From the NCBI GenBank assembly GCA_027076405.1, contig JALTJN010000399.1, forward strand, positions 1 through 44,903: DNA of 44,903 bases, written 5' to 3'. The notes below the pieces were generated by a model. That model was not told the DNA's origin, ran no database searches, and saw nothing but the letters and a program-made list of their open reading frames with translations. The stretch is from Chromatiales bacterium (GTDB lineage: Bacteria > Pseudomonadota > Gammaproteobacteria > UBA6429). Below are positions 9,681 to 27,442 of this stretch, one piece after another. The position numbers and the translations under genes are program-made. Each line of letters begins with the position of its first letter. Position 1 is the first letter of the stretch.

Positions 9681-12600
9681 ATGAAATCGACGAACCACTA
9701 TAAAAAACTCACGCAACATATTCGCGCAGTTTTATGTAATTATGCTCTGCCAGTTTTTTTGGTGCCATTCGTTTTTTCACATTCAGCCTTCGCCAACCCC
9801 GAAGGCGGAAATATAGTTGGCGGCTCTGGCTCAATTGGTAACAGCGGAACCATCACCAACATACAACAAAACAGTTCTAACCTAGCCATCCAATGGGATA
9901 GCTTTAATATTCAGCAAAATGAAACCGTTAACTTTCAACAACCTAATCGCTCAGCTATCGTATTAAATCGCATAATGGATGTTAATCCATCTCATATTCA
10001 AGGCGCGATTAATGCCAATGGACAAGTGATTATCGCTAACCCAAACGGTGTTTTCTTTGGGCCAACCGCTAATGTTAATGTCGGTGGTTTATTCGCCGCA
10101 GCACTTGATATAGACCCAAACGATTTTATGAACGGAAAGCTGGATTTTCAAGCACTTGAAAATACCAGCGGCCTCATTGCTAATGAAGGCACATTAAAAG
10201 TTATTGATGGCGGCACACTTGCATTAATGGGCAAGCAGGTTAAAAATTCTGGCCTACTGGTTGCCAATTTCGGCCTGGTTAACCTTGCCGCGGGTCACCG
10301 CATTTCTGTTCACTTTACAGATTATACCCACGTTAATATTTCCGTTAGCCCAGACGATTTAGCTAATATTTTAGAGTTGGATTCAACTGAAGTTTTCAAC
10401 TCTGGCTTAATTGAAGCGCACGGTGGTCGAGTCGTGTTAACCGCACAACAAGCCAGTGATATAAAAACCAGCCTTAACCCCAGAGATGAAAGCAATCAGG
10501 CAACTCAATTTATTGAACAAGAAGGGGTTGTTTATTTAACCGGCAGTGATGGGCGTATTAGTGATTTAGGTGGGATTGATGTATCTAACGATAAGGGTGA
10601 TGCAGGCAGCGTGAGCTATAAAGCTAACACGATACAGCACAATGGCAGTATTAATGCTGATAGCCAAAATGGAAATGGCGGCAAGGTTAGTTTTGATGCT
10701 AATGATACAACGCTGCTAACCGGTAACAGCACCATCTCTGCCCGCTCAAACAAAAATGGCACTGGCGGTGAGGTTAAGGTGCTGGGTAATCACGTTGCCC
10801 TGACGAATAATGCCAATATAAATGCCTCAGGTGCAAACGGTGGCGGCCATGTTTACATTGGGGGCGGCTACCAAGGCAAAGACCCAAGCTTGAAAAATGC
10901 GGATGCGGTTTTTATGGGTAAAGACACTCGAATAGAAGCCAATGCCACAGAAGATGGCGACGGTGGACAAATTATAGTTTGGTCTGAAAAAGCCAGCCGT
11001 GTGTATGGAGACTTAAGCGCAACAGGTGGAATAAAGCGTGGTGATGGCGGTCTTATTGAAACCTCAAGTCATCAGTATGTTGATTTAAATCCAAACATAG
11101 ATGTACATGCCAATAATGGATTACATGGTGAGTGGTTGATTGATCCGGCTAGTTTGGTAATTCAGAGTGGAATCGACTCTAATATCGGTGGTGGACCAGT
11201 CGGCCCTAATTTCTCTTCAACAGCCAATACATCAATTCTTGGTATTACAAGATTACAAAACGCTCTAGTCGCAGGCGCAAACATCACCGTCCAAACCAAC
11301 GTCAATACCGTCACCGTTAACACCCCAATTGGATGTGTCGGCGCTGCCTGCACGGGCACCACACAAATAGACCCGAACCTTGAAACCTCTGCCGTGGCCA
11401 ATAATAGCTTTGGCGACATCACGCTTGCGGTTGATCTTGATTACGACAATGCCGGTACCACCACCGCACCCAATTCTGACAACGCATCTTCCTTAACGCT
11501 GCGCGCCCATCGAGATGTTATTATTAATGGCCGCATTTTTGATTCTGATAGCGACAATGGTAACTCTCCTTTTGTGCCTGATGTAGATATTTTAAATTTA
11601 ACACTGCAAGCAGACTGGGGTGGTAATGGCGGCGCGAACCAATCGGGCACCGCTGGCCGGGGCACGGTTCGCATTAACAATGACATTGATTTACAAGGCG
11701 GCAACTTTACTGCCAGCGGCGTCAATTACATTCAATCGGCGAGTGCCAGCATAGACACGCGCATACCCGCATTAACCGCAAGTTCGGGTTTTGACCCTGT
11801 GGTTGAATTGGGTGCCAGCGCACCTTTACCGAATGGCAGCGTCACTATTACTGTACAAAACAGTGCCACGCTCGGTGATATTACCACCCGTGCGGGAACA
11901 GGCACCCTCACCGTGAATGCCAATAATGGCACCATTACTGGCCCCGGTATTTTAACCATTGCAGGCACCACAACCTTATCGGCCACTGGCGATATAAACC
12001 TTAACAATGGCGCGAATGATTTCAATACCATCCCGATTGATATTAGTAATGGCGCAAATGTCACACTCGCCGATGCCAATAATCTCACCGTAAATATTAA
12101 CAATAATTCAGTAACCCGCATTTCCACCAATACGGGTGGTGATGCGGTGATTAATGATATAGATGTCGCCGGTACAACACTCGGCGCAATGACCGTAGGC
12201 GGAAACTTAGATGTAAATGCGGCGGGTAGTATTACCACGGCAGGTATTGTCACCATTAATGATAATGGCAGCGGCAATGGAAATGGCATTTCAGAATTTC
12301 GTGTCCCCAATGGTGCAAGCATTTCACTCACTAACAATAATGCCTTAAACGGCACCTTAAATTATATTGCTAATACTGGGCAAATTAACAATATCAATGT
12401 GGTCAACACAAGCGGCATTAATTACCAAAATGGCTTGGGCGTTGCCGGTAACTTAAGCCTTCGCAGCCTTAATCAAAATGTGACGCTGAATAATTTTACG
12501 CTGGGCAATGCAAGCACTTTAACCCTAACCGCCGATAACGGTGACATTATTCAAAACAATGGAATTAATCATGCGGGTAACACTGTGCTCTCTGCGGCCG

Positions 12601-15038
12601 GTGATATTTTTGACCCCGTGATGGCCAATAACCCTATTAATAATTTAGCCAATGTACAAATTAATAATGCCACCAATGCAAGTATAAATAATGGCGGCAA
12701 TGCCATGGTACTTAACGGTGTAAGTAACACGAATAATTTAAATGTCATTGCACAAGGTGGTGTATCTGAAACCGCTGGCATTACTGTTGCCAATAACGCG
12801 ACTTTTGATACCGGCACCAATGCATTGTCGCTTAATAGCAGCACCCATAATTTTAATAACTTACAAATATCCGCTGCCGGTAGTGTTCAAATAAATGAAA
12901 TGGATAACCTAAATATAGCCGGTAATATGAGCAGCCTAGATATTACCACTGGCATCGGTGGCGCTGCGAGTACGCTGTCTAATATTACCGATTCACCACT
13001 GGTGGTCACCGGTGCAACCAACCTGATATTACAAAATGGTGGCTCGGTTAATTTTGCGAATTTTACTGGCGCACTGCGTAATGATTTACAAAGCATCATT
13101 AATATTACCAGCACGACAGGCTCGGTAAACAGCGTTAACTTACAAAACACATCCGATATTTTATTAGGCCCATTAAACGTTAGTAATATCTTAAGTTTAG
13201 ATAGCAGCGGCAATATATTACAAACAGGCAACTTAATTGTAAACGGAACCAGTGCCCTACAAGCCAATAACATAACACTCACTCAAAACAATAATTTTGT
13301 TGGCGCGGTCTCCATCACCGACAGTGGTGTTGTGCAACTAAATGATACAACCGGTGGTATCAATGTTATTGCGGTGAATAATAATGCCAGTAACACAATA
13401 GACTTAAGCGTAACCGCAACCGGCACGATTGGTGTAGAAGGTGAACTGTTAAATGCTAACATCGCAACCACAACCGGTAATATTCAAAGCACCGCTAATC
13501 TCTTAGTCACTAACAACACCACACTGGATGCCGGCGCATCTGGTAATGTGGATTTTCAGACTAATCCGGTAGATTTAGAAAACATCAATATCACTCAAGC
13601 AAATAATGTGCAAATCAATGATGTCGATAACCTAAGCATAATCAGTGCGATGGTGAATGGCACCTTGGACATTACCGCATTAGGCCCGGTATCGGTTAAC
13701 GGCACCATTAATACACTGAACGTAAGCACCAACAATGCAATCACACTCTCAGGTGTACTCGCTAACTTAAGTGCCACAACCACAGCAGGTGGCATATTAA
13801 ATGGCACGGGTGCTTTACGGGTAACTGGCACGAGTATTTTAGATGCAGCCGGTTCAGATATTAATCTGACCCATGCTGCTAATGATTTTAATCGCTTAAC
13901 GATCGTCAATGCACAAGACACCACGATTAATGATGCAAACCGTATTATTCTGCAAGACATCAATACCCGTGACTTTAACCTCACCACAGCGGGCAATATC
14001 ACGCAGTCTGCTGGCACCCAAGTTGTGTCGACACGCAATGCCAATATCAACGCCAATAATGCTGACATCACGTTAACCGAAAATAATTTATTTACGGCCA
14101 TCGGGTTAAATGGCAACCGCGCTACGCTGGTAAATAACCAGGCGTTAACGTTAAACGATTCAGCGGTTTCTGATGCAATAACCGTATCGACAAATAACGG
14201 TAACCTTTCAATTAATCAACTGACTGCGGCTAATACCATCACCCTAACAGCAGCCGATCAATTAATTGATGTCAACGGTGATGATGTAGCCAACATAATA
14301 GCTGACACCGCTAAACTGAATGCGGCTAACGGTATCGGCATGAGTTCGCATATTGATACACGCGTGCGTTTTCTTGAGGCGACGAATGCAAATAACGGTG
14401 ACATTAATATTAAAAACTCAGGTGGTGACATTACGCTAAACAATATATTTAATGGCGCAACCGATACCGGCAATTTTAATTTTGAAACCACCGATGATGT
14501 TTTGATTAACCATATCGAATTACAACAAAATCTAACCGAAGCCTTTTTTAGCAATGGCACCGGCACCGCCAACCTCTTTACAGCAGATGGCAGTTATTTA
14601 GGGCTGGGTGATGCGGATATTACTGACCCGGATATTACGGCGACTAATGTGCGTATTATTGGTGTTAAAGGCACACTCGGTACAATTAAGCGACCAATCG
14701 TGATGGATGTATCTGGTAAAGTTGAGCTAGTGCTTCGAGCTAGCCTTGACCCGGTTTATGTTGAGCCTGTTCCCGCACCCGATGACATACGCGATGAATC
14801 TATTTTACAATTTACCTCCGGTAACATCTTAAGTGCCATTAATGGTTTAACTTTAATAGATGTTGAAAACCTACTCGATATTAGCCCGGCAATTTTTACA
14901 GAAATATACTTGTTCGTCGTTGACTCTGACCCAGTGATGTTACCCAAAGATCAACGCTTTGATGATGGCTATACGGATGAGGAAGATGATGAGTATTTCA
15001 GGCAGGTGACAGGTGATGAAAAACATACAGATATTTAG
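9681..15038 (+). CDS. Two-partner secretion exoprotein (filamentous-haemagglutinin type)
   Basis: The 1785-aa protein has an extended signal peptide (1 to about 38, ending SAFA). The TPS secretion domain follows, with NIVGGSGSIGNSG, IQWDSFNI and the hallmark NPNGVFFG at 120-127. After about residue 450 the chain is a long series of imperfect Asn/Thr-rich repeats of beta-helix type (recurring NNA, INDAN and ITTAGN motifs). The C-terminus is acidic and Tyr-rich (DDGYTDEEDDEYFRQV). It lacks the CdiA pre-toxin and toxin tail, so it is more likely an adhesin or scaffold. The cognate transporter is presumably the tpsB at 3944-5818. Its base composition is richer in G+C than that of neighbouring genes. 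Confidence 0.93.
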   Translation: MKSTNHYKKLTQHIRAVLCNYALPVFLVPFVFSHSAFANPEGGNIVGGSGSIGNSGTITNIQQNSSNLAIQWDSFNIQQNETVNFQQPNRSAIVLNRIMDVNPSHIQGAINANGQVIIANPNGVFFGPTANVNVGGLFAAALDIDPNDFMNGKLDFQALENTSGLIANEGTLKVIDGGTLALMGKQVKNSGLLVANFGLVNLAAGHRISVHFTDYTHVNISVSPDDLANILELDSTEVFNSGLIEAHGGRVVLTAQQASDIKTSLNPRDESNQATQFIEQEGVVYLTGSDGRISDLGGIDVSNDKGDAGSVSYKANTIQHNGSINADSQNGNGGKVSFDANDTTLLTGNSTISARSNKNGTGGEVKVLGNHVALTNNANINASGANGGGHVYIGGGYQGKDPSLKNADAVFMGKDTRIEANATEDGDGGQIIVWSEKASRVYGDLSATGGIKRGDGGLIETSSHQYVDLNPNIDVHANNGLHGEWLIDPASLVIQSGIDSNIGGGPVGPNFSSTANTSILGITRLQNALVAGANITVQTNVNTVTVNTPIGCVGAACTGTTQIDPNLETSAVANNSFGDITLAVDLDYDNAGTTTAPNSDNASSLTLRAHRDVIINGRIFDSDSDNGNSPFVPDVDILNLTLQADWGGNGGANQSGTAGRGTVRINNDIDLQGGNFTASGVNYIQSASASIDTRIPALTASSGFDPVVELGASAPLPNGSVTITVQNSATLGDITTRAGTGTLTVNANNGTITGPGILTIAGTTTLSATGDINLNNGANDFNTIPIDISNGANVTLADANNLTVNINNNSVTRISTNTGGDAVINDIDVAGTTLGAMTVGGNLDVNAAGSITTAGIVTINDNGSGNGNGISEFRVPNGASISLTNNNALNGTLNYIANTGQINNINVVNTSGINYQNGLGVAGNLSLRSLNQNVTLNNFTLGNASTLTLTADNGDIIQNNGINHAGNTVLSAAGDIFDPVMANNPINNLANVQINNATNASINNGGNAMVLNGVSNTNNLNVIAQGGVSETAGITVANNATFDTGTNALSLNSSTHNFNNLQISAAGSVQINEMDNLNIAGNMSSLDITTGIGGAASTLSNITDSPLVVTGATNLILQNGGSVNFANFTGALRNDLQSIINITSTTGSVNSVNLQNTSDILLGPLNVSNILSLDSSGNILQTGNLIVNGTSALQANNITLTQNNNFVGAVSITDSGVVQLNDTTGGINVIAVNNNASNTIDLSVTATGTIGVEGELLNANIATTTGNIQSTANLLVTNNTTLDAGASGNVDFQTNPVDLENINITQANNVQINDVDNLSIISAMVNGTLDITALGPVSVNGTINTLNVSTNNAITLSGVLANLSATTTAGGILNGTGALRVTGTSILDAAGSDINLTHAANDFNRLTIVNAQDTTINDANRIILQDINTRDFNLTTAGNITQSAGTQVVSTRNANINANNADITLTENNLFTAIGLNGNRATLVNNQALTLNDSAVSDAITVSTNNGNLSINQLTAANTITLTAADQLIDVNGDDVANIIADTAKLNAANGIGMSSHIDTRVRFLEATNANNGDINIKNSGGDITLNNIFNGATDTGNFNFETTDDVLINHIELQQNLTEAFFSNGTGTANLFTADGSYLGLGDADITDPDITATNVRIIGVKGTLGTIKRPIVMDVSGKVELVLRASLDPVYVEPVPAPDDIRDESILQFTSGNILSAINGLTLIDVENLLDISPAIFTEIYLFVVDSDPVMLPKDQRFDDGYTDEEDDEYFRQVTGDEKHTDI

Positions 15039-15055
15039 TCCAAATATATTTGGAC
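15038..15055. terminator. Perfect palindrome after tpsA
   Basis: GTCCAAATATATTTGGAC is an exact 18-bp palindrome beginning at the last base of the tpsA stop codon. It can form a short hairpin but is not followed by a T-run, so it may be a processing or attenuation signal, or an operator, rather than a strong intrinsic terminator. Confidence 0.4.
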
Positions 15056-15081
15056 CTACCTTCTACTAAAGCAAACACATT

Positions 15082-15948
15082 ATGAGATCATATTTCTTTA
15101 TAGTTTTATTCATTTTTTCATCTCTTGCTCATGCAGAATCTGTACGCATACAGGTCATAGATGTAGGGCAGGCTGATGGAATCGTTATTCGCACGCCCAA
15201 CAAGCAAAAATGGATTGTGATAGATGCTGGCTCTGGCGCTATGTTTTCGAACTACCTGATAGACATGGGTATAGAATCTCTCGATATTGCTATAATGACT
15301 CACCGCCATAAAGATCATCTCGGCGGAATGGATGATGTTATTTATAAGTTACCCATTAAAAAATTCATTGGGGTGACTGAAAAATGTACGGAAAGAAAGT
15401 TATTTAACAAAGTACTAAAGGCTCTTTCTGAACAATCTGTACCCATACAAGACTTAAGTAGCACCCCTGAAGTTCATACTGTAGATGGTGTTAAAATAAC
15501 GATATTTCCTTTACCTGATCGCGCTGATTGTATGAAACATGAAAATCTAAATTCAATTGTTATGCGATTAGACTATGAAGATTTTTCTATGTTATTTACA
15601 GGTGATGCTGAAAAATCTGAATTAACATGGCTAGTTAACAACTATAAAGATTTGCTCGATGTAGACATATTAAAAGCATCACATCATGGTAGCAATAATG
15701 GCTACACTGATGATTTTCTCGATGTTGTATCACCGGAGCGGGTAATTATTTCTGCTGGCGTTAACAAAAAATATAAACATCCTATGAAACAAGCCGTCGA
15801 GAAATATTTATCAGAAACTAATAACCGCGTCTACTGCACAAACAGACAGGGGAGTATTCGGGTTTATGGATATAAAAATGGAAATTCAAGAATTTACAAA
15901 CAGAATAAAACAACTAAGAGCTGCATCTATGATGGCACCCTTTACTAA
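15082..15948 (+). CDS. Exported metallo-beta-lactamase-fold hydrolase (ComEC C-terminal type)
   Basis: The 288-aa protein has a cleavable signal peptide (1-18, ending AHA) and a complete MBL domain like the C-terminal domain of ComEC. It shows DVGQADG (27-33), IDAGSG (48-53), the metal motif HRHKDH (74-79), LFTGDAE with a metal-bridging Asp, and KASHHGSNNG. Related MBL proteins hydrolyse nucleic acids or other phosphoesters. It acts outside the cytoplasm. It follows tpsA by 43 bases, which suggests a shared role at the surface, possibly in processing DNA or another substrate. Confidence 0.82.
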   Translation: MRSYFFIVLFIFSSLAHAESVRIQVIDVGQADGIVIRTPNKQKWIVIDAGSGAMFSNYLIDMGIESLDIAIMTHRHKDHLGGMDDVIYKLPIKKFIGVTEKCTERKLFNKVLKALSEQSVPIQDLSSTPEVHTVDGVKITIFPLPDRADCMKHENLNSIVMRLDYEDFSMLFTGDAEKSELTWLVNNYKDLLDVDILKASHHGSNNGYTDDFLDVVSPERVIISAGVNKKYKHPMKQAVEKYLSETNNRVYCTNRQGSIRVYGYKNGNSRIYKQNKTTKSCIYDGTLY

Positions 15949-15952
15949 AAAA

Positions 15953-16390
15953 TTAATTTGTTTTATTTAAACACTCACTTATTATCTTCTCATACTTCTT
16001 GCTTCGACTAAAATATTTGTTTTTTAAAATTACATATAAAGAAACGGCTACAAATACGAACACAGCAATGTTTATTTTATCTAAAACCAATAAGAAAAAA
16101 ATTGTTGCCGCTGAAACAATAAGCACACTCATGAAATCGTCTTGAGCTAAAGACACATATTTCAGTGAATTAAAATTGACATAACCCACTAGCTCTTCGC
16201 CATAAAAAACAAGGGTTATTTCATGCTTGTTTTTTACTTCTAAACTCTGATTTTCAAAATGAAATTTTTTCTCGCTTCCATCATGAAGAATCAGCCAAAA
16301 CTCAGTATGTAACGTAGCGTTTCTTCCACCACCATGACTTTCATAACGCTCATGAAAATTACTGACTATCCCTTTTATAATTTCAGTCAT
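15953..16390 (-). CDS. Small membrane protein of unknown function
   Basis: The 145-aa protein has a soluble N-terminal half with a strand-rich GGGRNATLHTEFWLILHDGSEKKFHF pattern split over residues 21-46. Two adjacent membrane helices follow at about 87-120, and then a basic tail. The gene is convergent with the MBL gene, only four bases away. No family is recognised. Confidence 0.65.
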   Translation of the reverse strand: MTEIIKGIVSNFHERYESHGGGRNATLHTEFWLILHDGSEKKFHFENQSLEVKNKHEITLVFYGEELVGYVNFNSLKYVSLAQDDFMSVLIVSAATIFFLLVLDKINIAVFVFVAVSLYVILKNKYFSRSKKYEKIISECLNKTN

Positions 16391-16469
16391 AACATCCTAT
16401 ATTTTAGATATATTTTTACTTTAATCGTTAGGCCAATGTACAACACGAACCCTTACTACCCATTGTCAA

Positions 16470-17009
16470 CTAAACGACCTCTCTCAAATCTTCAAGAAAC
16501 TCCCATCCAGATGAAAGTCCAGAACCCTCTATAATATCTTTAAACTTTTCAGTGCAGTATTTATATACATATTCATGCATAAGATGAATTAAATACATGT
16601 AAACCCTTCACTTTATGTTCTATAAAGGCACTTTTCTACACCAATTTCTATGCCGTCAAAATGTTCTTTTTTACTATTAAATAGATCAATCGCATCAGTT
16701 GAATTTAACAAATTAAAAATATAATAATCATTCCCATCTACTGAAATTGGGAGGAATTCACCATACCGACCAATTATCGGCCTCAAATAATCCAACGCTT
16801 TGTTAGAGACTATAAACTCAAAAACACTGGTTGTTAGATCTGGAAGAGGCAGCTGTTCAGGAACTTCAGAACCATAATATAAGCTAGCGTCCAACTTAAC
16901 CCATTGATCTTTCCTTAATAAACCAGGAACAAAAGCGCTCTTTCTCGTCCTCATGTATTCCAATACGAGGGCAATCAACAACTCTGTAATTCAACCTGAA
17001 AATTGTCAT
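16470..17009 (-). pseudogene. Frameshifted Imm11-like immunity gene
   Basis: The longest remaining frame (16613-16981) carries YGEFLPISVDGNDYYIFN and FDGIEIGVEKC, clear relatives of the two intact immunity proteins. The N-terminus continues in another frame from an ATG at 17007-17009 (MTIFRLNYRVVD). After a stop, the C-terminus continues in two further frames: one encodes HKVKGLHVFNSSYA, the next CTEKFKDIIEGSGL, which aligns with CSDKFKQLIEDSDL of the left copy. At least three frameshifts are needed, so the gene is dead. No matching toxin gene is seen beside it. Confidence 0.8.
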
Positions 17010-17026
17010 AGTTTATTTTTCCATAA

Positions 17027-18157
17027 CTATGAAAAACCTTGCTTTCTTTCTACTTTCGAAATATAACTAGAGAAAACACGCTCAGATTCGAGCGACATAT
17101 TCCCATTAAATTCGAATGAGTTTAGTATATTCGATATAATATTATTCCATTTATTACTTTCATCATATCTCGATATTAACTCTCTTACTCGATTTAAAGT
17201 CAATTCAACAAACTCAGACTTGACATTATATATTCCGTGCGTTAAATACATTTTATTTCTTACAGCCTTCAAGTCAAATATAAAGTCTTTTGTATTTCTA
17301 TCAAAAATTATATTTTGAAGTCGTGGTAATTTCTTTATCAAGCCACCCAAATACACATCGCTATTATTATCATCAAAATAACGAACCTCTCCACCTACAT
17401 TCACTAACGAACCCTCCTTAAAGCCTAGACTAATAAAGAAACACTCAATCGCCCTAAACATAAGCAATACAGATGCACCATAAGAACTCTTCAAACAATT
17501 TACCTTTGACAAGACAAAAAAATATAAGGACATATAAAAAAATGATTTGCTACTATCATCTGACTTTATATTGATAAGCAGCTTTTTAAGACTAGAAATA
17601 GCAACCTTATATTTTAAATCAATATTAGGATGAACTGACTCCACCTGAATTGACGCATCTAAGACCAAAGACAGCACATCAACATACTCACTATTAAGCC
17701 TCAGATCAGATCTCTCCATATCTGAATTATTATTTGCCACATACGCCGTACGGCTAAACATTTCCCATATAATTTTTTCTGAAAAAAACAATATGTAATT
17801 ATTTATATCATGAAACGTTTTAAATCGGAGCGGTATATATTTTTTTATTTTATTTACACAATCCTTAGCCGCTTCTATATTTCCACCATTAATTGACGCT
17901 ATAAACCGTCCATAGTCAAAACTAAAATCATTATCAACAATTATACTCACTTTACCTGACAATAAACTAATGTAACAAACTAGAAGTTCTATTATTTCAT
18001 ACCCGTTAGGTTCTACAATATATATATCCTGAGGTGCATCTATGTCTTCCTCTATAGAATAATATGCCTCTAAATCATCTCGCCTAACCAATAGTGCGGA
18101 AAATGTTTTGTCGAAATTTTCGGCATCCCATACTCCAATGCTGTTTTCATTAATCAA
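17027..18157 (-). CDS. HEPN-like protein of the GIY-YIG/DGQHR operon
   Basis: The 376-aa protein has no family I can name with certainty. Its C-terminal third is helical and contains SYGASVLLMFRAIECFFISLGF (about 225-246), then RNKMYLTH (300-307). R300 and H307 are separated by six residues, which fits the R-x4-6-H signature of HEPN RNases. HEPN domains act as RNA-cutting toxins in many defence systems. Translation starts at a TTG that overlaps the stop of the upstream DGQHR gene (TTGA), so the genes are coupled. A nearby ATG is out of frame. The HEPN assignment rests on a short motif and helical context. Confidence 0.6.
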   Translation of the reverse strand: MINENSIGVWDAENFDKTFSALLVRRDDLEAYYSIEEDIDAPQDIYIVEPNGYEIIELLVCYISLLSGKVSIIVDNDFSFDYGRFIASINGGNIEAAKDCVNKIKKYIPLRFKTFHDINNYILFFSEKIIWEMFSRTAYVANNNSDMERSDLRLNSEYVDVLSLVLDASIQVESVHPNIDLKYKVAISSLKKLLINIKSDDSSKSFFYMSLYFFVLSKVNCLKSSYGASVLLMFRAIECFFISLGFKEGSLVNVGGEVRYFDDNNSDVYLGGLIKKLPRLQNIIFDRNTKDFIFDLKAVRNKMYLTHGIYNVKSEFVELTLNRVRELISRYDESNKWNNIISNILNSFEFNGNMSLESERVFSSYISKVERKQGFS

Positions 18158-20130
18158 GAAAACAGCTCATTTGTCGCTAACGATAATAAATTACTATATT
18201 CGTCCTTTGCTAAAGAGATCCTATCCTCTGACAGCTCGTCAATCTTAACATCAAATTCTTTTTGAGCTTCAGCATCACTATTTTGCTTTTCCATTAAATA
18301 TGTTTTTATTTGCATGTCATAATCTTTATATTGCCAATTATCAGAAATATCAGTTTTAATTGCTCTAATATATTCGACAAAATAGCTAGCTTTACATTTT
18401 TTAGAAAGCTCAATCACATCTGCTTTCAATTCTGTTATATCACTTATATCAGCAAGATCTACTATTTTATTTACAAAAGAATTCAAGACGTCTTCTTTGA
18501 TAAAAGTAGATAACATCAAGTTTGAAAGGCCTTCCTTCACTATCTTACTTACATTTACCGCAGTGGATTCTTTTTTATAAATCAATATCTGCATATAGTT
18601 TTTATGAGGCGAAAACATCATTTTTTTCTCATCAAAACAAATTAATTCAAATGAATCGACCATACTTTCAGCTATGAACTTCGGCTCAATTTCATATTTG
18701 ATTAATTTTTTACATAATTCGGCCCAAGATCTAAATAACGCTTGTTGAAATATATTTAAAAAATAGAATCTATCTTCATTAGCTTGTGATGCACTTTCAA
18801 ACGGCGCTAAAAAATCATTTTCTTCGGTCTTTATGCTATCACTATCATTGCTTTTACATGACCTAAATTGATATAAAATATCTTCTTTATACGTCGCTGC
18901 TGACGTACTTCCTTTCGAAATTCTTTCGTCAAGCGCTTGAACCTGCCCCTTGTACAAATCTATCAATTCTTTATACGGCCTTGGCTTTGTTAACAACACA
19001 TCTATTGCAGGCGTTATGTATCTGCTAATCTGTTTTCTTAGAATTGGCGCCTGATCAAGAGAGAACGTTGATTCTTCAATACTACTGATATCAGGACCAT
19101 TTAACTCTTCAAATTTTGGGATTGCAGACAAGTTAAGAATTATTTTTGTCAATCCTCCTGATCGCTTCTCAAAAACATATTTCCTTAATGCCTCTGCGAT
19201 AATTGAAATTGTAGTAATAGAAATATCGCTTTGTCTTTGATGTGCCCGCCTTGCTTCTCTAGTATTCCATTCAAGCATTGGCAATATTGAAAGGGCACTT
19301 TTATCATCTCCTTTCCATAAATTTGCTATGTCTCTAACTGATAATGACGCCAAACTATTATCTTTTAGCAAATCAAGAAAGTGTCCGCTTACTTCTTTAG
19401 ACTTTTGGTTTATGGTAATAAATAATTCCCGAACATCTACCTTTATGGTTTCCTCACTTTCAGCATTAACTACGGCATCTGGCGAAAAGAACAAGCATAT
19501 AGGAACTTGAACATCAGCAATATGTTCTTTTTTACTCGGATCACTGTGTATTCTTCTCAGTGCTTCAAAACGATGCTGCCCATCGATGACTACAAGTTTG
19601 ACTACTTCAGGATTATATTTTACTGTTACAGCATAATGAATATAATTATATATTTTCCCTTCGGATGTAATCTGATACCCCGTATTTTCTTCAGTGAGAT
19701 TTATTTCAACTTTAAACTTGTCCCCGCCCCATATTCTAGTTAACAATATAGGATTGTCATTTTTATCCTTTTTTATTTCATCAACTACACTTGAATATTT
19801 TTCTATTGGCTTGCCATTCTCTACACTAAGGAGAGTTACCAATAGAGGAGGAAAGAAAATAACTTTACCCTCATCTTTCTCTAAGTAGCCTTCAATTATC
19901 TCGTTATCAACCCGATCATAATCAACATCTCTTTGCATTAGTTCATCAAATGTAATTGCCTGAAAGTCTAATGCTTCTGCAGCAGTTTCTAAATCTCTAA
20001 GCCGGTTAACTCTGAAAGATGCCATTAAATAATCAAGCTCAAAACTTCTCGCAGTTTTAAACCGCCCATATACTCCATCAATAGATGCGGTGAATACATC
20101 CTTAATTGCTTTTTTGGGTAATGTCGCCAT
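18154..20130 (-). CDS. DGQHR-domain protein (DndB/ParB-like)
   Basis: The 658-aa protein contains KLVVIDGQHRFEALRRI (residues 178-194), the DGQHR motif shared with DndB and related DNA-modification-associated proteins. A strand-rich N-terminal segment (86-180) precedes it, and about 450 residues, mostly helical, follow. DGQHR proteins are linked with DNA modification and its regulation. This one is nearly twice as long as DndB (360 aa) encoded 0.8 kb away on the other strand. AGGA nine bases before the ATG is a good ribosome-binding site. The gene lies 14 bases after the GIY-YIG gene and overlaps the HEPN-like gene by four. Confidence 0.78.
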   Translation of the reverse strand: MATLPKKAIKDVFTASIDGVYGRFKTARSFELDYLMASFRVNRLRDLETAAEALDFQAITFDELMQRDVDYDRVDNEIIEGYLEKDEGKVIFFPPLLVTLLSVENGKPIEKYSSVVDEIKKDKNDNPILLTRIWGGDKFKVEINLTEENTGYQITSEGKIYNYIHYAVTVKYNPEVVKLVVIDGQHRFEALRRIHSDPSKKEHIADVQVPICLFFSPDAVVNAESEETIKVDVRELFITINQKSKEVSGHFLDLLKDNSLASLSVRDIANLWKGDDKSALSILPMLEWNTREARRAHQRQSDISITTISIIAEALRKYVFEKRSGGLTKIILNLSAIPKFEELNGPDISSIEESTFSLDQAPILRKQISRYITPAIDVLLTKPRPYKELIDLYKGQVQALDERISKGSTSAATYKEDILYQFRSCKSNDSDSIKTEENDFLAPFESASQANEDRFYFLNIFQQALFRSWAELCKKLIKYEIEPKFIAESMVDSFELICFDEKKMMFSPHKNYMQILIYKKESTAVNVSKIVKEGLSNLMLSTFIKEDVLNSFVNKIVDLADISDITELKADVIELSKKCKASYFVEYIRAIKTDISDNWQYKDYDMQIKTYLMEKQNSDAEAQKEFDVKIDELSEDRISLAKDEYSNLLSLATNELFS

Positions 20131-20144
20131 TGTAAAGTCCTAAG

Positions 20145-20756
20145 TTAATCAAGTGAAAGTTTTGGTTTAAATATATTTTGAAATAGTTTTTCAACTTCTC
20201 TATGTTTACCCGGATAATTTTCTGGAAGTGGCAAACAATGAAAAGTAAGGTCTGACATACTTAAATGAAAATAGGATATTCTATCAATTAATTCTGTTTC
20301 TCCAGAAACATGTTGCTTAAGTCTGCTTTGTAGAGACTGGTCAGCCGTCATCCCTATATAAAGAGGAGGCAGTGAATCAAACATTCCTCTCATAAACTCA
20401 ACAATATTAAGTATGAGATCATTATCCATTTGACAATCAAGCACATTGAACAAAAGGTCATCTACTTTATTGAAATCAATATAAACGGCATTTATTTTTA
20501 AGCCATTTCTTAAATGAAGCCCTTTCTTATTATCTATAATATCGCCAAAATAATTTTGATCTGTTAATATTTTTTTAAATTTATTGATATGAGCCAACAA
20601 ATTAATTTTATTGTCATGCTCGACGTTACCATCACATAAACCGAGCTCATAGTTATTTGGAAATCGAAGCTTAAAGTAGTAAATACCACCTTTTGTTTCA
20701 GGTACTTGATCTATATCCGATGTTAGTTTGTATGTTTTTATTAGTAAACGATCCAC
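20145..20756 (-). CDS. GIY-YIG-like nuclease protein
   Basis: The 203-aa protein shows the pieces of a GIY-YIG nuclease in order: GGIYYF (GIY at 24-26), LYIGMT (YIG at 133-135), R145 and H149 in SRLKQH, then acidic residues E187/E189 and N194 near the C-terminus. Normally about ten residues separate GIY and YIG. Here there are about 106, so either a domain is inserted or the first match is coincidental. The start is GTG, since no in-frame ATG is available. It is the first gene of the three-gene minus-strand operon and diverges from dndB. A DNA-cutting role is inferred from the family. Confidence 0.6.
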   Translation of the reverse strand: MDRLLIKTYKLTSDIDQVPETKGGIYYFKLRFPNNYELGLCDGNVEHDNKINLLAHINKFKKILTDQNYFGDIIDNKKGLHLRNGLKINAVYIDFNKVDDLLFNVLDCQMDNDLILNIVEFMRGMFDSLPPLYIGMTADQSLQSRLKQHVSGETELIDRISYFHLSMSDLTFHCLPLPENYPGKHREVEKLFQNIFKPKLSLD

Positions 20757-20902
20757 AATTTTATTATTTGATCCATAATTATTATCATGAGCACTTCTTT
20801 TTACCCTTTAACACCCTGATTAAACGTATAAAGACTGAGTATTGTCGACCTCATTGACCAATAGGTTAAAATTTTTTCTATATCAATAAATCAACCATTA
20901 AT

Positions 20903-20933
20903 GGAAGGTATTATTGACAATATTATTACTTCC
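20903..20933. promoter_or_regulatory. Candidate operator over the dnd promoter
   Basis: GGAAG (20903-20907) and CTTCC (20929-20933) form the outer arms of an imperfect inverted repeat whose interior (TATTATTG...CAATATTATTA) is also nearly symmetrical. It covers the -35 box and part of the spacer of the dnd promoter. DndB represses dnd in Salmonella, so DndB or the second DGQHR protein could bind here. That is inference. Confidence 0.5.
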
Positions 20934-20942
20934 ATCTACAAT
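20914..20942 (+). promoter_or_regulatory. Sigma-70 promoter of dndBCDE
   Basis: TTGACA (20914-20919) and TACAAT (20937-20942) are separated by exactly 17 bases. Transcription would start near 20949, giving a leader of about 25 bases without an obvious Shine-Dalgarno sequence before dndB. Confidence 0.7.
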
Positions 20943-20973
20943 AAATTGACTTCCAAATTGCCTATTTTCTCAG

Positions 20974-22056
20974 ATGAACGACATTGAATTTTGCCATACA
21001 TTCCCTGCTGTTAGAGGCATCCAAGCAGGAAGACCATGCTACATTGCTATGTGCCCCATGCGCATAGTCCCAAAACTCTTTAAATTTGATGAAGATGAGG
21101 TTCCGCCTGAATTAAGAGCACAAAGATCATTAAATAGAGGTAGAATACCAGAAATATCGAGTTATTTAATTAATAATTCATCCAATTACACACTTTCATC
21201 CCTCACCGCTTCTGTAGACTCAGCAGTCAACTTCGAACCTATGTCTGATACCGGCCATGGTCAAAATATCGGAACACTATCTATACCAATGGAAGCACAA
21301 ATATTAATCAATGACGGTCAACATCGTCGCGCAGCCATTGAGGAAGCCATTAAAGAAACCCCTGAATTAGCATATGATAATATATCAGTTCTGTTTTTCA
21401 TAGATGAGGGTCTTTCTAGAAGCCAGCAAATGTTTGCGGATCTCAATAAGCATGCTGTACGCCCTAGCGATTCTATCAGTACACTTTATGATCTTCGTGA
21501 CACTATTTCAGACCTAAGTCGACACGTTCAAAAGCATGTCCACGTATTTAGCCGTCTCACTGAACTAGAAAAATCTAGTATATCTAACCGTAGCATTAAA
21601 CTGTTTACACTTAGTGGCATCAAGAATGCTAGTAAAGCGCTATTACACAAAGGCTTGAAAGACCTCATCAGCAAAGAAGAAAAGGAACTGACCGTACAAT
21701 TTTGGAATGAGGTTGCCTCTAATATGCCAGATTGGCAGTTAGCCCTAAGTAAAAAAGTCAACTCATCCGAATTAAGAGAACTATATATCCACTCTCACGG
21801 CGTCATGTTGCAAGCAATGGGACAAATTGGACATGAATTACTAAATAATCAAAAAAACTGGAAAAAACCACTTAAACAACTTAAATATATTGATTGGGCT
21901 AGAGCAAATGAAGACTGGGAAGGTCGCGCCATGATACATGGGCGCATAAGCAAAGCTAGAATAAATGTACTTTTAACTGGAAGTTACATAAAAAAACACC
22001 TAAATATACCACTCAACCCATTAGAAGAAGAGGCCGAGCAGGCTTTTATGTCATGA
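20974..22056 (+). CDS. dndB: DndB, phosphorothioation regulator
   Basis: The 360-aa protein opens with FPAVRGIQAGRPCYIAMCPMR, typical of DndB, and carries DGQHRRAAIEEAI with DGQHR at 114-118. DndB is not needed for phosphorothioate chemistry. It binds DNA, tunes modification and represses the dnd operon in Salmonella. Its stop overlaps the dndC start by four bases (ATGA). Length is normal for the family. No ribosome-binding site is evident, so the mRNA may be read from a short leader. Confidence 0.92.
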   Translation: MNDIEFCHTFPAVRGIQAGRPCYIAMCPMRIVPKLFKFDEDEVPPELRAQRSLNRGRIPEISSYLINNSSNYTLSSLTASVDSAVNFEPMSDTGHGQNIGTLSIPMEAQILINDGQHRRAAIEEAIKETPELAYDNISVLFFIDEGLSRSQQMFADLNKHAVRPSDSISTLYDLRDTISDLSRHVQKHVHVFSRLTELEKSSISNRSIKLFTLSGIKNASKALLHKGLKDLISKEEKELTVQFWNEVASNMPDWQLALSKKVNSSELRELYIHSHGVMLQAMGQIGHELLNNQKNWKKPLKQLKYIDWARANEDWEGRAMIHGRISKARINVLLTGSYIKKHLNIPLNPLEEEAEQAFMS

Positions 22057-23636
22057 GCAGTAAAAAAAAGAATAACTTTATATATAGTACTCACGCCAAA
22101 ATGCTAGATCAACTATTTATAGCTGAACAAGATTTAAGTGAGTTAATTGATAACATTAAAAAGCTCTACGCTAGTGACAAACGGCCATGGATTATTGGCT
22201 TTAGTGGGGGTAAAGATTCGACATGCATTTTATCACTTATTTACAGCGCTATACTCCAATTAAGCCCTTCAAAAAGACACAAACCAATATATGTCGTTTC
22301 CTCTGATACACTTGTGGAAACACCTGTTGTCGTTGACTTAATAGACCACATCCTAGAACTAATAAACAGCCAGGCAAAACAAAACAACTTGCCTATGAGT
22401 GCTCATAAAGTCACTCCCTTAACTGAAAAGTCATTTTGGACAAGTTTATTAGGCCGCGGTTATCCCGCACCTACAAAATCATTCCGGTGGTGCACAGAAA
22501 GATTGAAAATCGATCCTGTTAGTCGTTTCATCAAAGAAAAAGCTGATCAATTTGGTGAAGTAGTTGTAGTTTTAGGCTCAAGAACACAAGAAAGCTCTAG
22601 TCGAGCACAAACAATACAAAACCATAAAATAGAAGGCTCAAGCTTTAGTCGCCATGATTCTTTACCAAACGCATATACATACATGCCCATTGTTGATTGG
22701 AGCGCAGACGATGTATGGCAATATTTAATGAGCGCACCTTGCCCATGGAGTGGCGACAACCAAATTTTATTTGATTTATACAAGGGCTCTAATCAAGGGG
22801 AATGCCCCTTAGTCATTGATAAGAGCACACCATCCTGTGGAAATTCACGATTTGGTTGCTGGACATGTACCGTCGTAACAAAAGATAAAGCTCTCCATGG
22901 TCTGATTGAATCAGGTGCCACTTGGATGAAACCCCTTCTAAATTTTAGAAATATGCTTCATAAAACTACCGCCCCGGATAAAAAGTCCCAATATCGCAAC
23001 TATAAAAGACGTACAGGTAAAGTTCATTATTATAGCAAAAAGGAAAAGACTGATGTCAGAGACAAAAATGGCACTTTAATTTCTACCCGTAAACCAGGCA
23101 AAATTGAGAGCATGGATAGCAAACTTAGCCTTGGCCCATACTGGATGGAATATCGTCAAAAATGGCTTAAGCAACTATTAGAAATTGAAAAGTCACTCAA
23201 AGAAGGCGGCCATAACTTTGACATACTCACCATTGAAGAATTACAGGCAATTCGCCAACAATGGTTAAGAGACCCGAACGAGCCTGACTGGGCAGATACA
23301 TTACCTAAAATTTATTCCGAGGTATATGACACTGAAGTAGAATGGATTGAAAATGATGCAGGAGCCTTTACAGAACCAGATGCAAAGCTACTTAACTCCC
23401 TGGGTAATAAACATAATGTACCAGCAGAACTTATCATGAAGATGATTGAAGTTGAACTGACAGCCAGTGGGCTAGGTAAACGCAAAGGCATTTTGCAAAA
23501 GCTTGAAACCGTTTTGAATAAAGACTGGGAATCACTCGAAGAAATTAATACACGAAACATTCAATCAGCCAAAAACAATACATGGAAAGACAAACTAGAA
23601 GAGCTTAAAGCGGAATACAGCAGAGTCCCAACATAA
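22053..23636 (+). CDS. dndC: DndC, ATP-pyrophosphatase sulfurtransferase
   Basis: The 527-aa protein belongs to the PAPS-reductase-like ATP pyrophosphatases. It has the PP-loop SGGKDST (51-57), RWCTERLK (145-152) and a Cys cluster C251, C262, C269, C272 for the [4Fe-4S] centre reported in DndC. It activates the DNA backbone and transfers sulfur during phosphorothioation, using sulfur delivered by a cysteine desulfurase. No dndA/iscS-like gene is in the window, so a host desulfurase must serve. The stop overlaps the dndD start (TAATG). Confidence 0.95.
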   Translation: MSSKKKNNFIYSTHAKMLDQLFIAEQDLSELIDNIKKLYASDKRPWIIGFSGGKDSTCILSLIYSAILQLSPSKRHKPIYVVSSDTLVETPVVVDLIDHILELINSQAKQNNLPMSAHKVTPLTEKSFWTSLLGRGYPAPTKSFRWCTERLKIDPVSRFIKEKADQFGEVVVVLGSRTQESSSRAQTIQNHKIEGSSFSRHDSLPNAYTYMPIVDWSADDVWQYLMSAPCPWSGDNQILFDLYKGSNQGECPLVIDKSTPSCGNSRFGCWTCTVVTKDKALHGLIESGATWMKPLLNFRNMLHKTTAPDKKSQYRNYKRRTGKVHYYSKKEKTDVRDKNGTLISTRKPGKIESMDSKLSLGPYWMEYRQKWLKQLLEIEKSLKEGGHNFDILTIEELQAIRQQWLRDPNEPDWADTLPKIYSEVYDTEVEWIENDAGAFTEPDAKLLNSLGNKHNVPAELIMKMIEVELTASGLGKRKGILQKLETVLNKDWESLEEINTRNIQSAKNNTWKDKLEELKAEYSRVPT

Positions 23637-25645
23637 TGATTTTAGAGCAATTAACTTTAAATAATTTCAGAGTATTCCAAGGAGAACATAAATTTGACCT
23701 GACTCCTAGAGTGAAATACGGCAAAAAACGACCCATAATCCTATATGGAGGCTTAAATGGTGCTGGAAAAACAACTACATTAACAGCTGTTAGATTAGCC
23801 CTATATGGCAAGCAATCGATTGGCTTTGGCTCCTCTCAAAAAGATTATAATAATTTCTTAGAAAAATCGATACACAGATCAACTAGCTCAGTAACTCAAG
23901 CAAGCTCTGCTTGCATTCAATTGTCTTTTAGTTATGCCAATATGGGCATTATTAAACATTACACTGTTAAACGACACTGGATGCTTAACGGAAAAAAAGT
24001 AATTGAAAAACTTTCTATAGCAGAAGATGGCAAAGAATTATTAGAATTAAATGCTGAACAATGTCAGGGATTCTTAAATGAACTCATCCCAATTGGTGTT
24101 TCTGACCTATTTTTCTTCGACAGTGAAAAAATCGCTGAGCTTGCAGAAGACACCGGTGGCTTTGCGCTTGGTGATGCCATAAAAAAACTTCTAGGCTTGG
24201 ATCTCATTGATACGTTGAATGCTGATCTTAGCGTCTTACTTAGAAGTGAATATAAAAAAAACATCACATTAGAAACACAAAAAGAAATAACTAAGTTAGA
24301 AAAAAAACTTTTTTCACAAGAAAGTAAAGCAGAAAAAGAAACTCTAGCTTATGAAAATGCCAGAATAAATGTTTCAGAATCAGATGTGATTCTAGAAAAA
24401 CTTGAAAACGAACTCACATCACGAGGCGGAGCATGGGCGATTTCTCGCGAAAAAGAATTGAAAAATCAAATTTCGCTTAGTACAGAAAAAGATAATTTAC
24501 AGAAACGCATACGTGAAATTTTAGAGAGCAGCTACCCTCTATCTTTGGCAAAAACATTTGTTAAAAAAACGTTAAAGCAGTTAAATAGTGAAAAAAACCA
24601 TAAAAAAAATATAAATTCTGCAGACGCTATTAACAAACATTTAGTTTCCTTAGAAAAAAACATAAAAAAAATACTTAGCAACTCTGAATTTAAAAAAATA
24701 AATAAGATTATCGATAAAGAATTCAAACAAATATCACGCCCTAATAGCAATACAAACATAATACATGACATCTCTGACAGTCTGCTTGACTCTATTGAAA
24801 TCACTGTTGATGATGCCACTAACAATCAAAAGAAAAACATCCTTAAACTTGGTAAAGAACTTCAAAGTATAAACAATAAGCTTGATATGGCAGGAAAAAA
24901 CATAGCCAGAGCACCAGAAGAATTATTAATCAAACCATTAATAGATAAGGTAAAAAAAGAACAAGACAAACGTGCCGATGCACTTGCCAAACAGCGCACA
25001 TATACCGAAATACGGAAACGGCACCTCCGAGATGCAATTGAAACAGTTCGTACTCTAGATAATCTATCCTCCAAATTCACAGCCGCTGATACAAACAACC
25101 GTACATTGGAATATATTTCAAACTCAAAAAACTTACTCAGTGAGTTTGCTGCTGAAATGGCGAAAAACAAAATCAAGGATTTAGAACATGAATTTATTAA
25201 TTCTTTCCATAAACTAGCAAGAAAAGAAGATATCAGTTTGCGAGCAGAAATAAACCCTAAGGATTTCTCTGTTAAACTAATAGATGATAATGATATTGAA
25301 ATAGACAAAGATGAACTATCGGCAGGTGAAAAACAAATTTATGCTATTTCTATTTTAGAAGCATTAGCTCGCACATCAGGCCGAAAACTACCCATTATTA
25401 TTGACACCCCTCTGGCTCGCCTTGACTCAATACATAGAACTAAGTTAATTAAAAATTATTTTCCGTATGCAAGCCATCAGGTCATAATTTTATCGACTGA
25501 CACAGAAGTGGATGAAGAATTTTATGAAGATTTATCAAGCAGTATTTCTCATGCTTACAAGCTAAACTATGATTCAAAGAAAAAATGCACGTCAGCTAAA
25601 GAAGGGTACTTCTGGAAACATAATAAAAATGAGTCTATAAAATAA
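23636..25645 (+). CDS. dndD: DndD, SMC-like ATPase
   Basis: The 669-aa protein has an SMC/Rad50-type architecture. The Walker A motif GLNGAGKTT is at 39-47. Long coiled coils fill about 215-520. The C-terminal ABC signature ELSAGEKQIYAISILEALAR and Walker B LPIIIDTPLARLD complete the ATPase. DndD is thought to provide ATP-driven DNA nicking or remodelling for sulfur insertion. It overlaps dndC and dndE by one base each, so the three are translationally coupled. Confidence 0.95.
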   Translation: MILEQLTLNNFRVFQGEHKFDLTPRVKYGKKRPIILYGGLNGAGKTTTLTAVRLALYGKQSIGFGSSQKDYNNFLEKSIHRSTSSVTQASSACIQLSFSYANMGIIKHYTVKRHWMLNGKKVIEKLSIAEDGKELLELNAEQCQGFLNELIPIGVSDLFFFDSEKIAELAEDTGGFALGDAIKKLLGLDLIDTLNADLSVLLRSEYKKNITLETQKEITKLEKKLFSQESKAEKETLAYENARINVSESDVILEKLENELTSRGGAWAISREKELKNQISLSTEKDNLQKRIREILESSYPLSLAKTFVKKTLKQLNSEKNHKKNINSADAINKHLVSLEKNIKKILSNSEFKKINKIIDKEFKQISRPNSNTNIIHDISDSLLDSIEITVDDATNNQKKNILKLGKELQSINNKLDMAGKNIARAPEELLIKPLIDKVKKEQDKRADALAKQRTYTEIRKRHLRDAIETVRTLDNLSSKFTAADTNNRTLEYISNSKNLLSEFAAEMAKNKIKDLEHEFINSFHKLARKEDISLRAEINPKDFSVKLIDDNDIEIDKDELSAGEKQIYAISILEALARTSGRKLPIIIDTPLARLDSIHRTKLIKNYFPYASHQVIILSTDTEVDEEFYEDLSSSISHAYKLNYDSKKKCTSAKEGYFWKHNKNESIK

Positions 25646-25995
25646 TGTTACCCAATCGTGTAAAACTTTCAAAAAATGCCACAAAAAAAATGCAATATTT
25701 AAAGTCCAAAACGGGAATCACGCCAAATATATTGGCGCGCATTGCATTAATGCTCGCTATTAAAGATAATAACAATCTTTATAATGCAGGCGTTGAAGAC
25801 CTAGAAGGGCAAGTTCTTGACAAAAGCGTTTTATTTGGAGATCACTCGGACATCTATGATGTACTTATTAATCAATATATTCATGACAACGATATTGACT
25901 TTGGCCTACAAAAAACTATTGCCTCTTTAGTTGAAGTGGGTATCAACAAAATGCGCCACTCTAAAAATTTAATAGATATTTGCAATCTTAAATAA
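25645..25995 (+). CDS. dndE: DndE, DNA-binding phosphorothioation subunit
   Basis: The 116-aa protein has the DndE N-terminus (RVKLSKNATKKMQYLKSKTG, then TPNILARIALMLAI) that forms a small helical nicked-DNA-binding fold. A central acidic segment and a final helix (FGLQKTIASLVEVGINKM) follow. Start and dndD stop share one base (TAATG). Length is normal. With DndC and DndD it completes the modification core. The restriction genes dndFGH do not follow. Confidence 0.92.
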   Translation: MLPNRVKLSKNATKKMQYLKSKTGITPNILARIALMLAIKDNNNLYNAGVEDLEGQVLDKSVLFGDHSDIYDVLINQYIHDNDIDFGLQKTIASLVEVGINKMRHSKNLIDICNLK

Positions 25996-26051
25996 TATCC
26001 TTTACATTCGTTTTTACATCGAACCATTAAACTCACCACAAGGGTATTTAC

Positions 26052-26432
26052 ATGAATTCATATGAAGAAAAATTAAATGAAGTAACTAGCCATACATATG
26101 TTACCGATTCAGGGCCTATATTAGAGTTTATTAGACTTTTAGCTGTCGATGGAGAGTTAGGCAACATCTCAATATTCACTCAAGAATATATTAAAAAAGT
26201 CCCTTCGAGTAAATCATATATTATCTCCAGCTTACCAGCTATTATTTTAAATTCTTATATTTGCAATCATGTACAAATATGCTTTGATGAATTCTTGGAA
26301 TGGTCTGCATCTGACAGCACATGGGCTAATGAGATACAAAATTCTGCTTTAGACTCTAATAAGTTCGTAGATGTAATAAGTAATATTCTTACACGAATTA
26401 GGTTACATAATTCAGTATTCCCTGTAAATTGA
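26052..26432 (+). CDS. Protein of unknown function downstream of dndE
   Basis: The 126-aa, largely helical protein has a hydrophobic middle (SYIISSLPAIILNSYICN) and no recognised motif. A candidate AGGG ribosome-binding site precedes the ATG. It lies 57 bases after dndE, on the same strand. Whether it belongs to dnd or to the ParA cassette is open. Confidence 0.6.
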   Translation: MNSYEEKLNEVTSHTYVTDSGPILEFIRLLAVDGELGNISIFTQEYIKKVPSSKSYIISSLPAIILNSYICNHVQICFDEFLEWSASDSTWANEIQNSALDSNKFVDVISNILTRIRLHNSVFPVN

Positions 26433-26506
26433 ATTACATCAAGAAATATATCAAATCATAATTCATTTGTTATACTCTAAATAATTCAAAGAATAAGGTA
26501 TTAAAT

Positions 26507-27442
26507 ATGGAAATTGTTTCGATAATTAATTATAAGGGTGGAGTAGGAAAAACCACTGTCACCTCAAACTTAGCGGCAAACTTAGCGTGGAAAGGAAAAA
26601 GCGTACTAATACTTGATATGGATGCTCAGGCCAGTCTGACCTTCTCATTTATGACACCTGACTATTGGGATAAGACATTAAAAGAAACAAAAACAATAAA
26701 AAGCTGGTTTGACTGTATCAGCCAGGGAAACCCCACGATGCCATTGTCTGAACTAAGAGTCAGGCCAAATACTATCAACAATTTCCTACAATCTCGTGGC
26801 AGATCTGGCTGTGTTGACTTAATATCATCACATTTAGGCTTAATAAATGTTGATTTGGAGCTAGCCACACTGCTTAGTGGTGCTAGCCCACTACAAACAC
26901 AGAAAAAATATTTAAAAGTACACGGTAAGCTCCGCGAAGAACTTAATGCTCTGTCATCTGAAATGAATTACGATATAGTCTTAATTGATTGTCCTCCAAA
27001 TTTCAATATCGTGACTAAAAATGCCTTAATCGCTTCTGATAAAATATTAGTACCTGCAAAACCTGATTACCTTTCTACTTTAGGTATTGACTATTTACAG
27101 AAAAGCGTTGATTCATTAATTAGTGACTTTAACTGGTATGCCAAAAAAGATGACTTACATAATGAATCAAATCCAGAGTTTATGGGTGTTGTCTTTACCA
27201 TGATCCAAATTACGTCAGGAATGCCAATTTCAGCACAACAACAGTATATTTCTCAAACAAAAAGATTAGGTGTACCTGTTTTTGACACCATGTTTAGAGA
27301 AAACAAAACTATTTTTGCTGACGCCCCAAGAAATGGCATGCCTGTAGTTATGAATTCATACTCAAGCAATACGCACTCAGATATAGTTACTGAGATTGAA
27401 GAGTTTGTCAGTGAATTCAGTGATAAGCTAGGAGGCATATAG
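26507..27442 (+). CDS. ParA/MinD-family ATPase
   Basis: The 311-aa protein has the deviant Walker A KGGVGKTT (10-17), the DMDAQASLT strand, and IVLIDCPPNFNIVTKNALIASDKILVPAKPDYLS as the A'/B segments, split here over two motifs. This is the ParA/Soj pattern. Such ATPases position DNA or protein complexes on the nucleoid or membrane. Typical plasmid ParA comes with ParB and parS. Instead a 134-aa partner overlaps its stop codon by one base. The position directly behind dnd suggests a role in, or acquisition with, the phosphorothioation locus. Confidence 0.9.
   Translation: MEIVSIINYKGGVGKTTVTSNLAANLAWKGKSVLILDMDAQASLTFSFMTPDYWDKTLKETKTIKSWFDCISQGNPTMPLSELRVRPNTINNFLQSRGRSGCVDLISSHLGLINVDLELATLLSGASPLQTQKKYLKVHGKLREELNALSSEMNYDIVLIDCPPNFNIVTKNALIASDKILVPAKPDYLSTLGIDYLQKSVDSLISDFNWYAKKDDLHNESNPEFMGVVFTMIQITSGMPISAQQQYISQTKRLGVPVFDTMFRENKTIFADAPRNGMPVVMNSYSSNTHSDIVTEIEEFVSEFSDKLGGI

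Follow-up and report, generated by a model that had tools for sequence, protein, structure and literature searches.

A 44,903-nucleotide contig of a Chromatiales bacterium (JALTJN010000399.1, assembly GCA_027076405.1; hereafter the window, meaning the whole stretch) carries on its minus strand, at 17027–20756, an operon for a GIY-YIG nuclease-like protein, a DGQHR protein, and a HEPN-domain protein, which stands back-to-back with dndBCDE, genes that write phosphorothioate (PT) marks. On a narrow balance of the evidence, we take the operon to be a PT-dependent anti-invader effector cassette that serves DndBCDE, a split counterpart of SspE and DndI with an added RNase arm. The argument turns on the near-obligate company of DndC and on the recurrence of the GIY–DGQHR pair beside a second PT writer. 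Gene 1 (20145–20756, 203 residues, GTG start) is followed after a 14-bp gap by gene 2 (18154–20130, 658 residues, ParB/Srx-type, ATG start), which overlaps gene 3 (17027–18157, 376 residues, TTG start) by 4 bp, the starts being those of the open reading frame (ORF) finder; 217 bp separate the operon from the divergent dndB, whose product is itself a DGQHR protein. The original prediction, made from the window alone, proposed three tight or overlapping minus-strand genes for GIY-YIG-like, 658-residue DGQHR, and HEPN-like proteins diverging from dndB. The ORFs and the analyses below bear out each of these assignments, and the residues it named (the DGQHR motif, R300/H307, YIG, R145) lie where it placed them. 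The interval it drew, 16470–20973, contains the three genes but also an Imm11-like fragment that lies outside the operon. PADLOC-DB 2.0.0 assigned no family to any of the three genes at E up to 1, and NCBIfam recognized only the DGQHR domain among their products, below its cut-off.

Gene 1 is probably a DNA cutter, as judged from its predicted fold and profile matches, both of which point to GIY-YIG nucleases. It carries the features of the GIY-YIG (URI) superfamily, with the GIY (24–26) and YIG (133–135) strands, an Arg after YIG (R145), H149, and the catalytic Glu (E189); the two strands are 106 residues apart, the usual spacing being ∼10 residues. Y26, Y133, G135, R145, and E189 are invariant across 14 GIY-type rows. 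At the place of the conserved C-terminal Asn of UvrC, located by spacing from the Glu, the window protein has Ser201 and the four other close rows also have Ser; L020, L021, L029, and L030 have Asn there. A phmmer search with the GIY protein found one relative, on a 3200-base contig without context. Gene 3 is probably an RNA cutter, since its predicted helical bundle matches HEPN RNases and its HEPN domain (∼199–337) contains R300-N301-x5-H307; the superfamily motif is R-[N/D/H]-x4-6-H. None of these three residues varies across the 13 rows, and the 12 besides the window protein are only 12–19% identical to it. HepT proteins, the HEPN toxins of toxin–antitoxin pairs, are among the structural matches. 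A phmmer search with the HEPN protein returned no relatives, and its homology across loci was shown instead through neighboring genes and left-out models. We considered a Csm6-like CARF–HEPN nucleotide sensor and dropped it as unsupported: the N-terminal 180 residues are predicted with low confidence (block predicted local distance difference test scores, pLDDT, of 32–57) and give only weak structural rows, and no CARF Pfam match occurs among the 13 HEPN family members at E up to 1.

Gene 2, which is probably the reader of sulfur marks on DNA, has its DGQHR motif at residues 183–187. In a 32-row DGQHR alignment (A1), Q66-R67-D68, D183–R187, F237, and N241 are invariant, in agreement with the QR, DGQHR, and FxxxN motifs described for the domain (PMC4619093). 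Its scores fall under the cut-offs of the curated DGQHR-domain models (TIGR03187/PF14072), at 31.5 against 58.85 bits and 14.8 against 29.1 bits, and many of its relatives bear a precomputed PF14072 annotation. The family comprises at least 103 proteins, gene 2 included, among the best 7995 candidates scored. Gene 2 is not a DndB, because it has no BLAST similarity to the DndB of the window; nor does it match TIGR03233 (DndB) at E up to 1, and it is nearly twice as long as DndB, with which it shares the DGQHR domain and the dnd neighborhood. At the place where DndI senses PT with Y25 (PMC11662687), DndI reads Y-Q-R-D and A1 reads [I/M/V]-Q-R-D; QR is present in 27 of 27 locus proteins and D in 20 of 27 (17/18 close, 3/9 distant). 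The correspondence is suggestive only: the two were matched by eye, and a QR pair is a feature of the whole superfamily (PMC4619093). Sequence searches of the PDB with alignments A2, A3, and A1 gave nothing better than 0.37, 0.1, and 0.024, respectively.

To survey the operon we chose loci by the DGQHR protein alone. Searching genome contigs with the DGQHR alignment as a profile returned 32 loci, 19 of them close (L001–L019, E of 9e-34 or better) and 13 distant, where a single-sequence scan of the same contigs gave no matches; a genome search added one more distant locus (L034), and L033 duplicates L016. The HEPN gene lies directly downstream of the DGQHR gene in 12 of the 19 close loci, the others being L004, L005, L007, L009, L010, L012, and L019 (the contig of L009 stops just after the DGQHR gene). 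A GIY gene lies upstream in only 3 of the 19, L006, L013, and L018, so that a strict three-gene system was rejected; and since all three genes occur together only in these loci and in the window, the trio is two overlapping recurring pairs, GIY–DGQHR and DGQHR–HEPN. L006, from Alcanivorax sp. 1008, has the three genes together with dndBCDE. The tie to dnd is much firmer. Genes for dnd lie inside the fetched DNA of 12 of the 19 close loci, with the pair in four arrangements relative to them (divergent, convergent, before, and after), and genome-wide DndC exceeds its cut-off in 17 of the 18 searchable close genomes (15/15 plus 2/3, the two being L009 and L019; L005 is left out of the 18), including four (G013, G014, G015, G008) in which dndC is on a different contig or ∼160 kb away. 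The sole genome without DndC is that of L014, where the pair adjoins dndE and a partial dndD at a contig end. By comparison, DndC is present in 21 of 390 genomes of one order and in 13 of 398 genomes of a phylum sample (15 at E 1e-60), both samples including the center genome G004; Fisher tests, which treat related genomes as independent, give p = 1e-18 and 3e-21, respectively. The close clade has few members: the center is its only one among the 398 phylum-sample genomes, and the order sample holds the center and one distant type. Among viral contigs, 600 pattern matches included no relative, and four plasmid records have weak partial DGQHR matches (34–40% of the query). Other nuclease genes near close loci encode a DndI-like GmrSD protein in L008 (9JFL, 5e-22), beside DGQHR–HEPN, DndFGH in L015 and L017, Pbe proteins in L001, and in L011 a protein of HNH type.

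The 14 distant loci (L020–L032 and L034), in two of which (L028 and L031) the ORF step gave no DGQHR gene, extend one of the two pairs to a second writer. A GIY-like gene lies directly upstream of the DGQHR gene in 9 of them, as detected with a profile of five close GIY proteins, at E of 9.6e-10 to 1.4e-6 in four and of 0.0013 to 0.14 in five, the weaker calls resting also on position, length, and later alignment. PT-system genes are found in the fetched DNA of 8 of these 9 loci. In L021, L023, and L026, GIY–DGQHR directly follows SspB-SspC-SspD (PADLOC, with the SspB of L026 by BLASTP); Ssp-like genes are seen by BLASTP in L025 (∼4 kb downstream) and L035 (the locus of L034), Ssp and Pbe genes in L020, Pbe and an SspB-like gene in L022 (both by BLASTP, with one gene each from PADLOC), and DndC/DndD-like genes in L029 (BLASTP). 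L030 has no PT-system genes within 10 kb and DndC elsewhere in its genome. A writer sulfurtransferase of the SspD or DndC type is present in seven of these GIY–DGQHR loci, and DndC exceeds its cut-off in 3 of 12 distant genomes (L022 and L024 left out). Pbe is a PT-linked restriction module rather than a writer (PMC12707154), and the pair is thus shown with two writers, Dnd and Ssp. The survey qualifies the original prediction: the link to dnd holds for this DGQHR clade, but neither a fixed trio nor a GIY–DGQHR pair confined to dnd does, the pair occurring near Ssp and Pbe genes as well. Its other suggestion, that the genes act alone, is disfavored for this clade because 17 of 18 genomes have DndC and L014 has dndE with part of dndD. 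L024 (Pantoea sp. Eser) has decayed: at 10034–19660 only fragments are left of its DGQHR, HEPN, and dnd genes, cassette and dnd having degenerated together. A 597-residue protein stands beside GIY–DGQHR in L020 (11732–13525), L021 (11977–13770), and L035 (10626–12419), grouped by equal length only; it was suspected to be SspE, but the L021 copy, the one compared, resembles MORC ATPases in the PDB.

The DGQHR and HEPN genes differ in history from the dndBCDE genes beside them. In 11 loci including the window (55 pairs), the identities of DndB, DndC, DndD, and DndE intercorrelate at r of 0.87–0.96, whereas those of DGQHR or HEPN correlate with the dnd identities at r of only 0.23–0.46; the tie between DGQHR and HEPN is also loose (r = 0.47), in loci where the two genes lie −44 to +6 bp apart. 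In trees, the window DGQHR protein clusters with L001–L003 (support 100/100) and the window DndB with L006, L013, L016, and L018 (95/97), a grouping repeated less firmly by DndC (89/95). Each data set rejects the other's grouping, DGQHR that of dnd at p = 9e-48 and, more weakly, DndC (p = 0.018) and DndB (p = 0.021) that of DGQHR; these p-values are optimistic because the groups were picked after the identities were known. L008 and L015 illustrate the pattern, being 91% identical in DndC, 89% in DndB, 27% in DGQHR, and 15% in HEPN. The simplest reading of these comparisons is that the cassette has been exchanged beside conserved writers; faster evolution of the DGQHR and HEPN proteins contributes to the mosaic as well.

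Among known systems, the closest are SspE (SspABCD–SspE) and DndI (IscS–DndBCDE–DndI), in which a PT-sensing DGQQR nucleoside triphosphatase (NTPase) is coupled to an HNH nickase (PMC10952713, PMC9646914, PMC13251355, PMC11662687). The cassette likewise sets a ParB-superfamily DGQ[QH]R protein and a DNA nuclease by PT-writing genes, recurs with such genes, and has QR(D) at the PT-sensing position of gene 2. It differs in splitting reader and nuclease over two genes, in having GIY-YIG in place of HNH (DUF1524), with gene 2 matching neither DUF262 nor DUF1524 in Pfam at E up to 1, in lacking the sensing tyrosine, and in having the extra HEPN gene. GmrSD and BrxU type IV restriction also joins a ParB/Srx domain to a nuclease, but targets modified bases with an HNH enzyme (PMC4619093, PMC10952713), and Csm6-type RNases share the HEPN fold with gene 3, in whose family PF09670 matches 3 of 13 members, all under its cut-off; gene 3 has no supported CARF domain. 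In 2024, Rakesh, Aravind, and Krishnan described nucleases of the URI/GIY-YIG and HEPN kinds that flank dnd loci, some of them encoded on the opposite strand, and proposed them as suicide effectors (PMC10853773). These are the kinds of nuclease found here, but the available part of that paper treats them as standalone and describes no DGQHR partner, two pairs, Ssp link of GIY–DGQHR, or swapping. Dnd-linked GIY-YIG and HEPN nucleases are thus already known, and the open-access literature searched gave no description of the DGQHR-centered pairs (most subscription papers and preprints lay outside the search).

If the operon is such a cassette, the DGQHR protein, which is related both to DndB and to the N-terminal NTPase domain of SspE and DndI, would read PT marks or their absence. 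The marks could let the cell tell invading viral DNA from its own, and the DGQHR protein would license nicking or cleavage of unmarked DNA by the GIY-YIG protein. Reader and nuclease would then work from separate genes as SspE or DndI does, with GIY-YIG replacing HNH, and the HEPN protein would be a second output, an RNase that halts the cell once defense fails; this scheme would involve PT reading, nucleoside triphosphate use, and cleavage, with the three proteins in contact and an abortive outcome. Because GIY–DGQHR accompanies two unlike writers, the mark is the common factor, and we therefore favor PT-dependent licensing of the GIY-YIG protein with HEPN as the RNase arm. A wider form of the proposal, which we put forward tentatively, is that GIY–DGQHR(–HEPN) is a mark-reading effector module that serves two writers (Dnd and Ssp), occurs also with Pbe, is swapped in the Dnd branch, and gives one reader two outputs, cleavage of invader DNA by a GIY-YIG DNase and shutdown of the cell by a HEPN RNase, the latter in the Dnd branch.

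The main rival casts the HEPN protein as a toxin and the DGQHR protein as its guard, which would restrain it while monitoring DndBCDE or the PT level, so that loss of PT or an attack on Dnd frees the toxin and the GIY gene is an optional extra. The adjacent or overlapping DGQHR and HEPN genes, the HepT toxins among the structural matches, the suicide coupling proposed for Dnd (PMC3506569, PMC10853773), and the divergence of both proteins between L008 and L015 beside near-identical DndC, as expected of displaced toxins, all suit it; near Ssp and Pbe genes, however, the DGQHR protein is paired with GIY and lacks a HEPN neighbor, which gives it a broader role than an antidote would have, and we consider the guard unlikely as an account of the operon. 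That DndB, a DGQHR protein, is reported to regulate PT (PMC4507180), and that a possible operator overlaps the dndB promoter-like site (below), could instead make gene 2 a further regulator of the PT level in the manner of DndB, with the nucleases as unrelated passengers of a defense island. This is improbable, as GIY and HEPN genes lie directly beside DGQHR in many genomes and in four arrangements relative to dnd, GIY–DGQHR is also near Ssp genes, and dndC is remote from the pair in the four genomes named above. Very improbable, in our estimate, is a Dnd-independent defense system that merely co-resides in dnd islands: the weak correlation of DGQHR and HEPN distances with those of dndBCDE would fit it, but DndC is present in all but one of the searchable genomes, even where dnd is not adjacent, and PT-system genes accompany nearly all the distant GIY–DGQHR loci.

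In the window, dndB (20974–22056), dndC for the sulfurtransferase (22053–23636), and dndD for the ABC ATPase (23636–25645), all on the plus strand, are recognized by Pfam, NCBIfam, and PADLOC, DndB at 506.5 bits against TIGR03233 (equivalog cut-off 328). DndE (25645–25995, plus) scores above its Pfam cut-off (71.2 against 25 bits) and below that of NCBIfam (63.4 against 71.85 bits). A Pfam scan of 34 window proteins showed no cysteine desulfurase; by analogy with other dnd systems (PMC10853773), the sulfur could come from the housekeeping IscS. The divergent intergenic region (20757–20973) has a promoter-like TTGACA-17-TACAAT facing dndB (20914–20942, plus), a match to 11 of 12 consensus positions, and an overlapping inverted repeat (20901–20914/20922–20935), both called from their letters alone; three GGAAG/CTTCC elements, seen by eye inside the repeats, surround this site (20901–20955), and repeat and elements may form an operator. 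Directly after dndE (26052–27846, plus) lie genes for a 126-residue protein, a ParA-type ATPase, and a 134-residue protein; in L016 a ParB-HTH protein follows dndE.

The Imm11-like fragment next to the operon (16613–16981, minus) aligns with the Imm11 protein at 2976–3548 at 36% identity over 111 columns and is perhaps an orphan immunity gene or a remnant. An AHH-nuclease protein with that Imm11 neighbor occupies 2207–3548, and a second AHH nuclease lies at 38359–38790; two-partner secretion genes are at 3944–5818 and 9681–15038. A Sir2 protein (5834–6568), together with a large superfamily-1-type helicase (1177 residues) and two calcineurin-type phosphoesterases (29330–37084, minus), are possible further defense genes. 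Tn7-like transposition genes for TniQ, TniB (TnsC-like), a Mu-type transposase (TnsB-like), and TnsA fill 39672–44714 (minus), and the dnd region may be their cargo, dnd having been named among Tn7-like cargo (PMC8649781); the two end stretches inspected have no clear end repeats, and the transposition genes have no near match among plasmids. With megablast only, neither the window at 15000–28000 nor a Citrobacter relative matched E. coli genomes.

DndFGH is found in only 806 of 3416 taxa with a nuclease in the Dnd neighborhood (PMC10853773); for the restricting nuclease elsewhere, the cassette is a concrete, testable candidate that offers residues to mutate and has relatives in Pseudomonas and Alcanivorax strains. 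The proximity of GIY–DGQHR to Dnd genes in some loci and to Ssp genes in others suggests interchangeable effectors that recognize the sulfur mark itself, an arrangement that, if true, would unify several PT defense systems.

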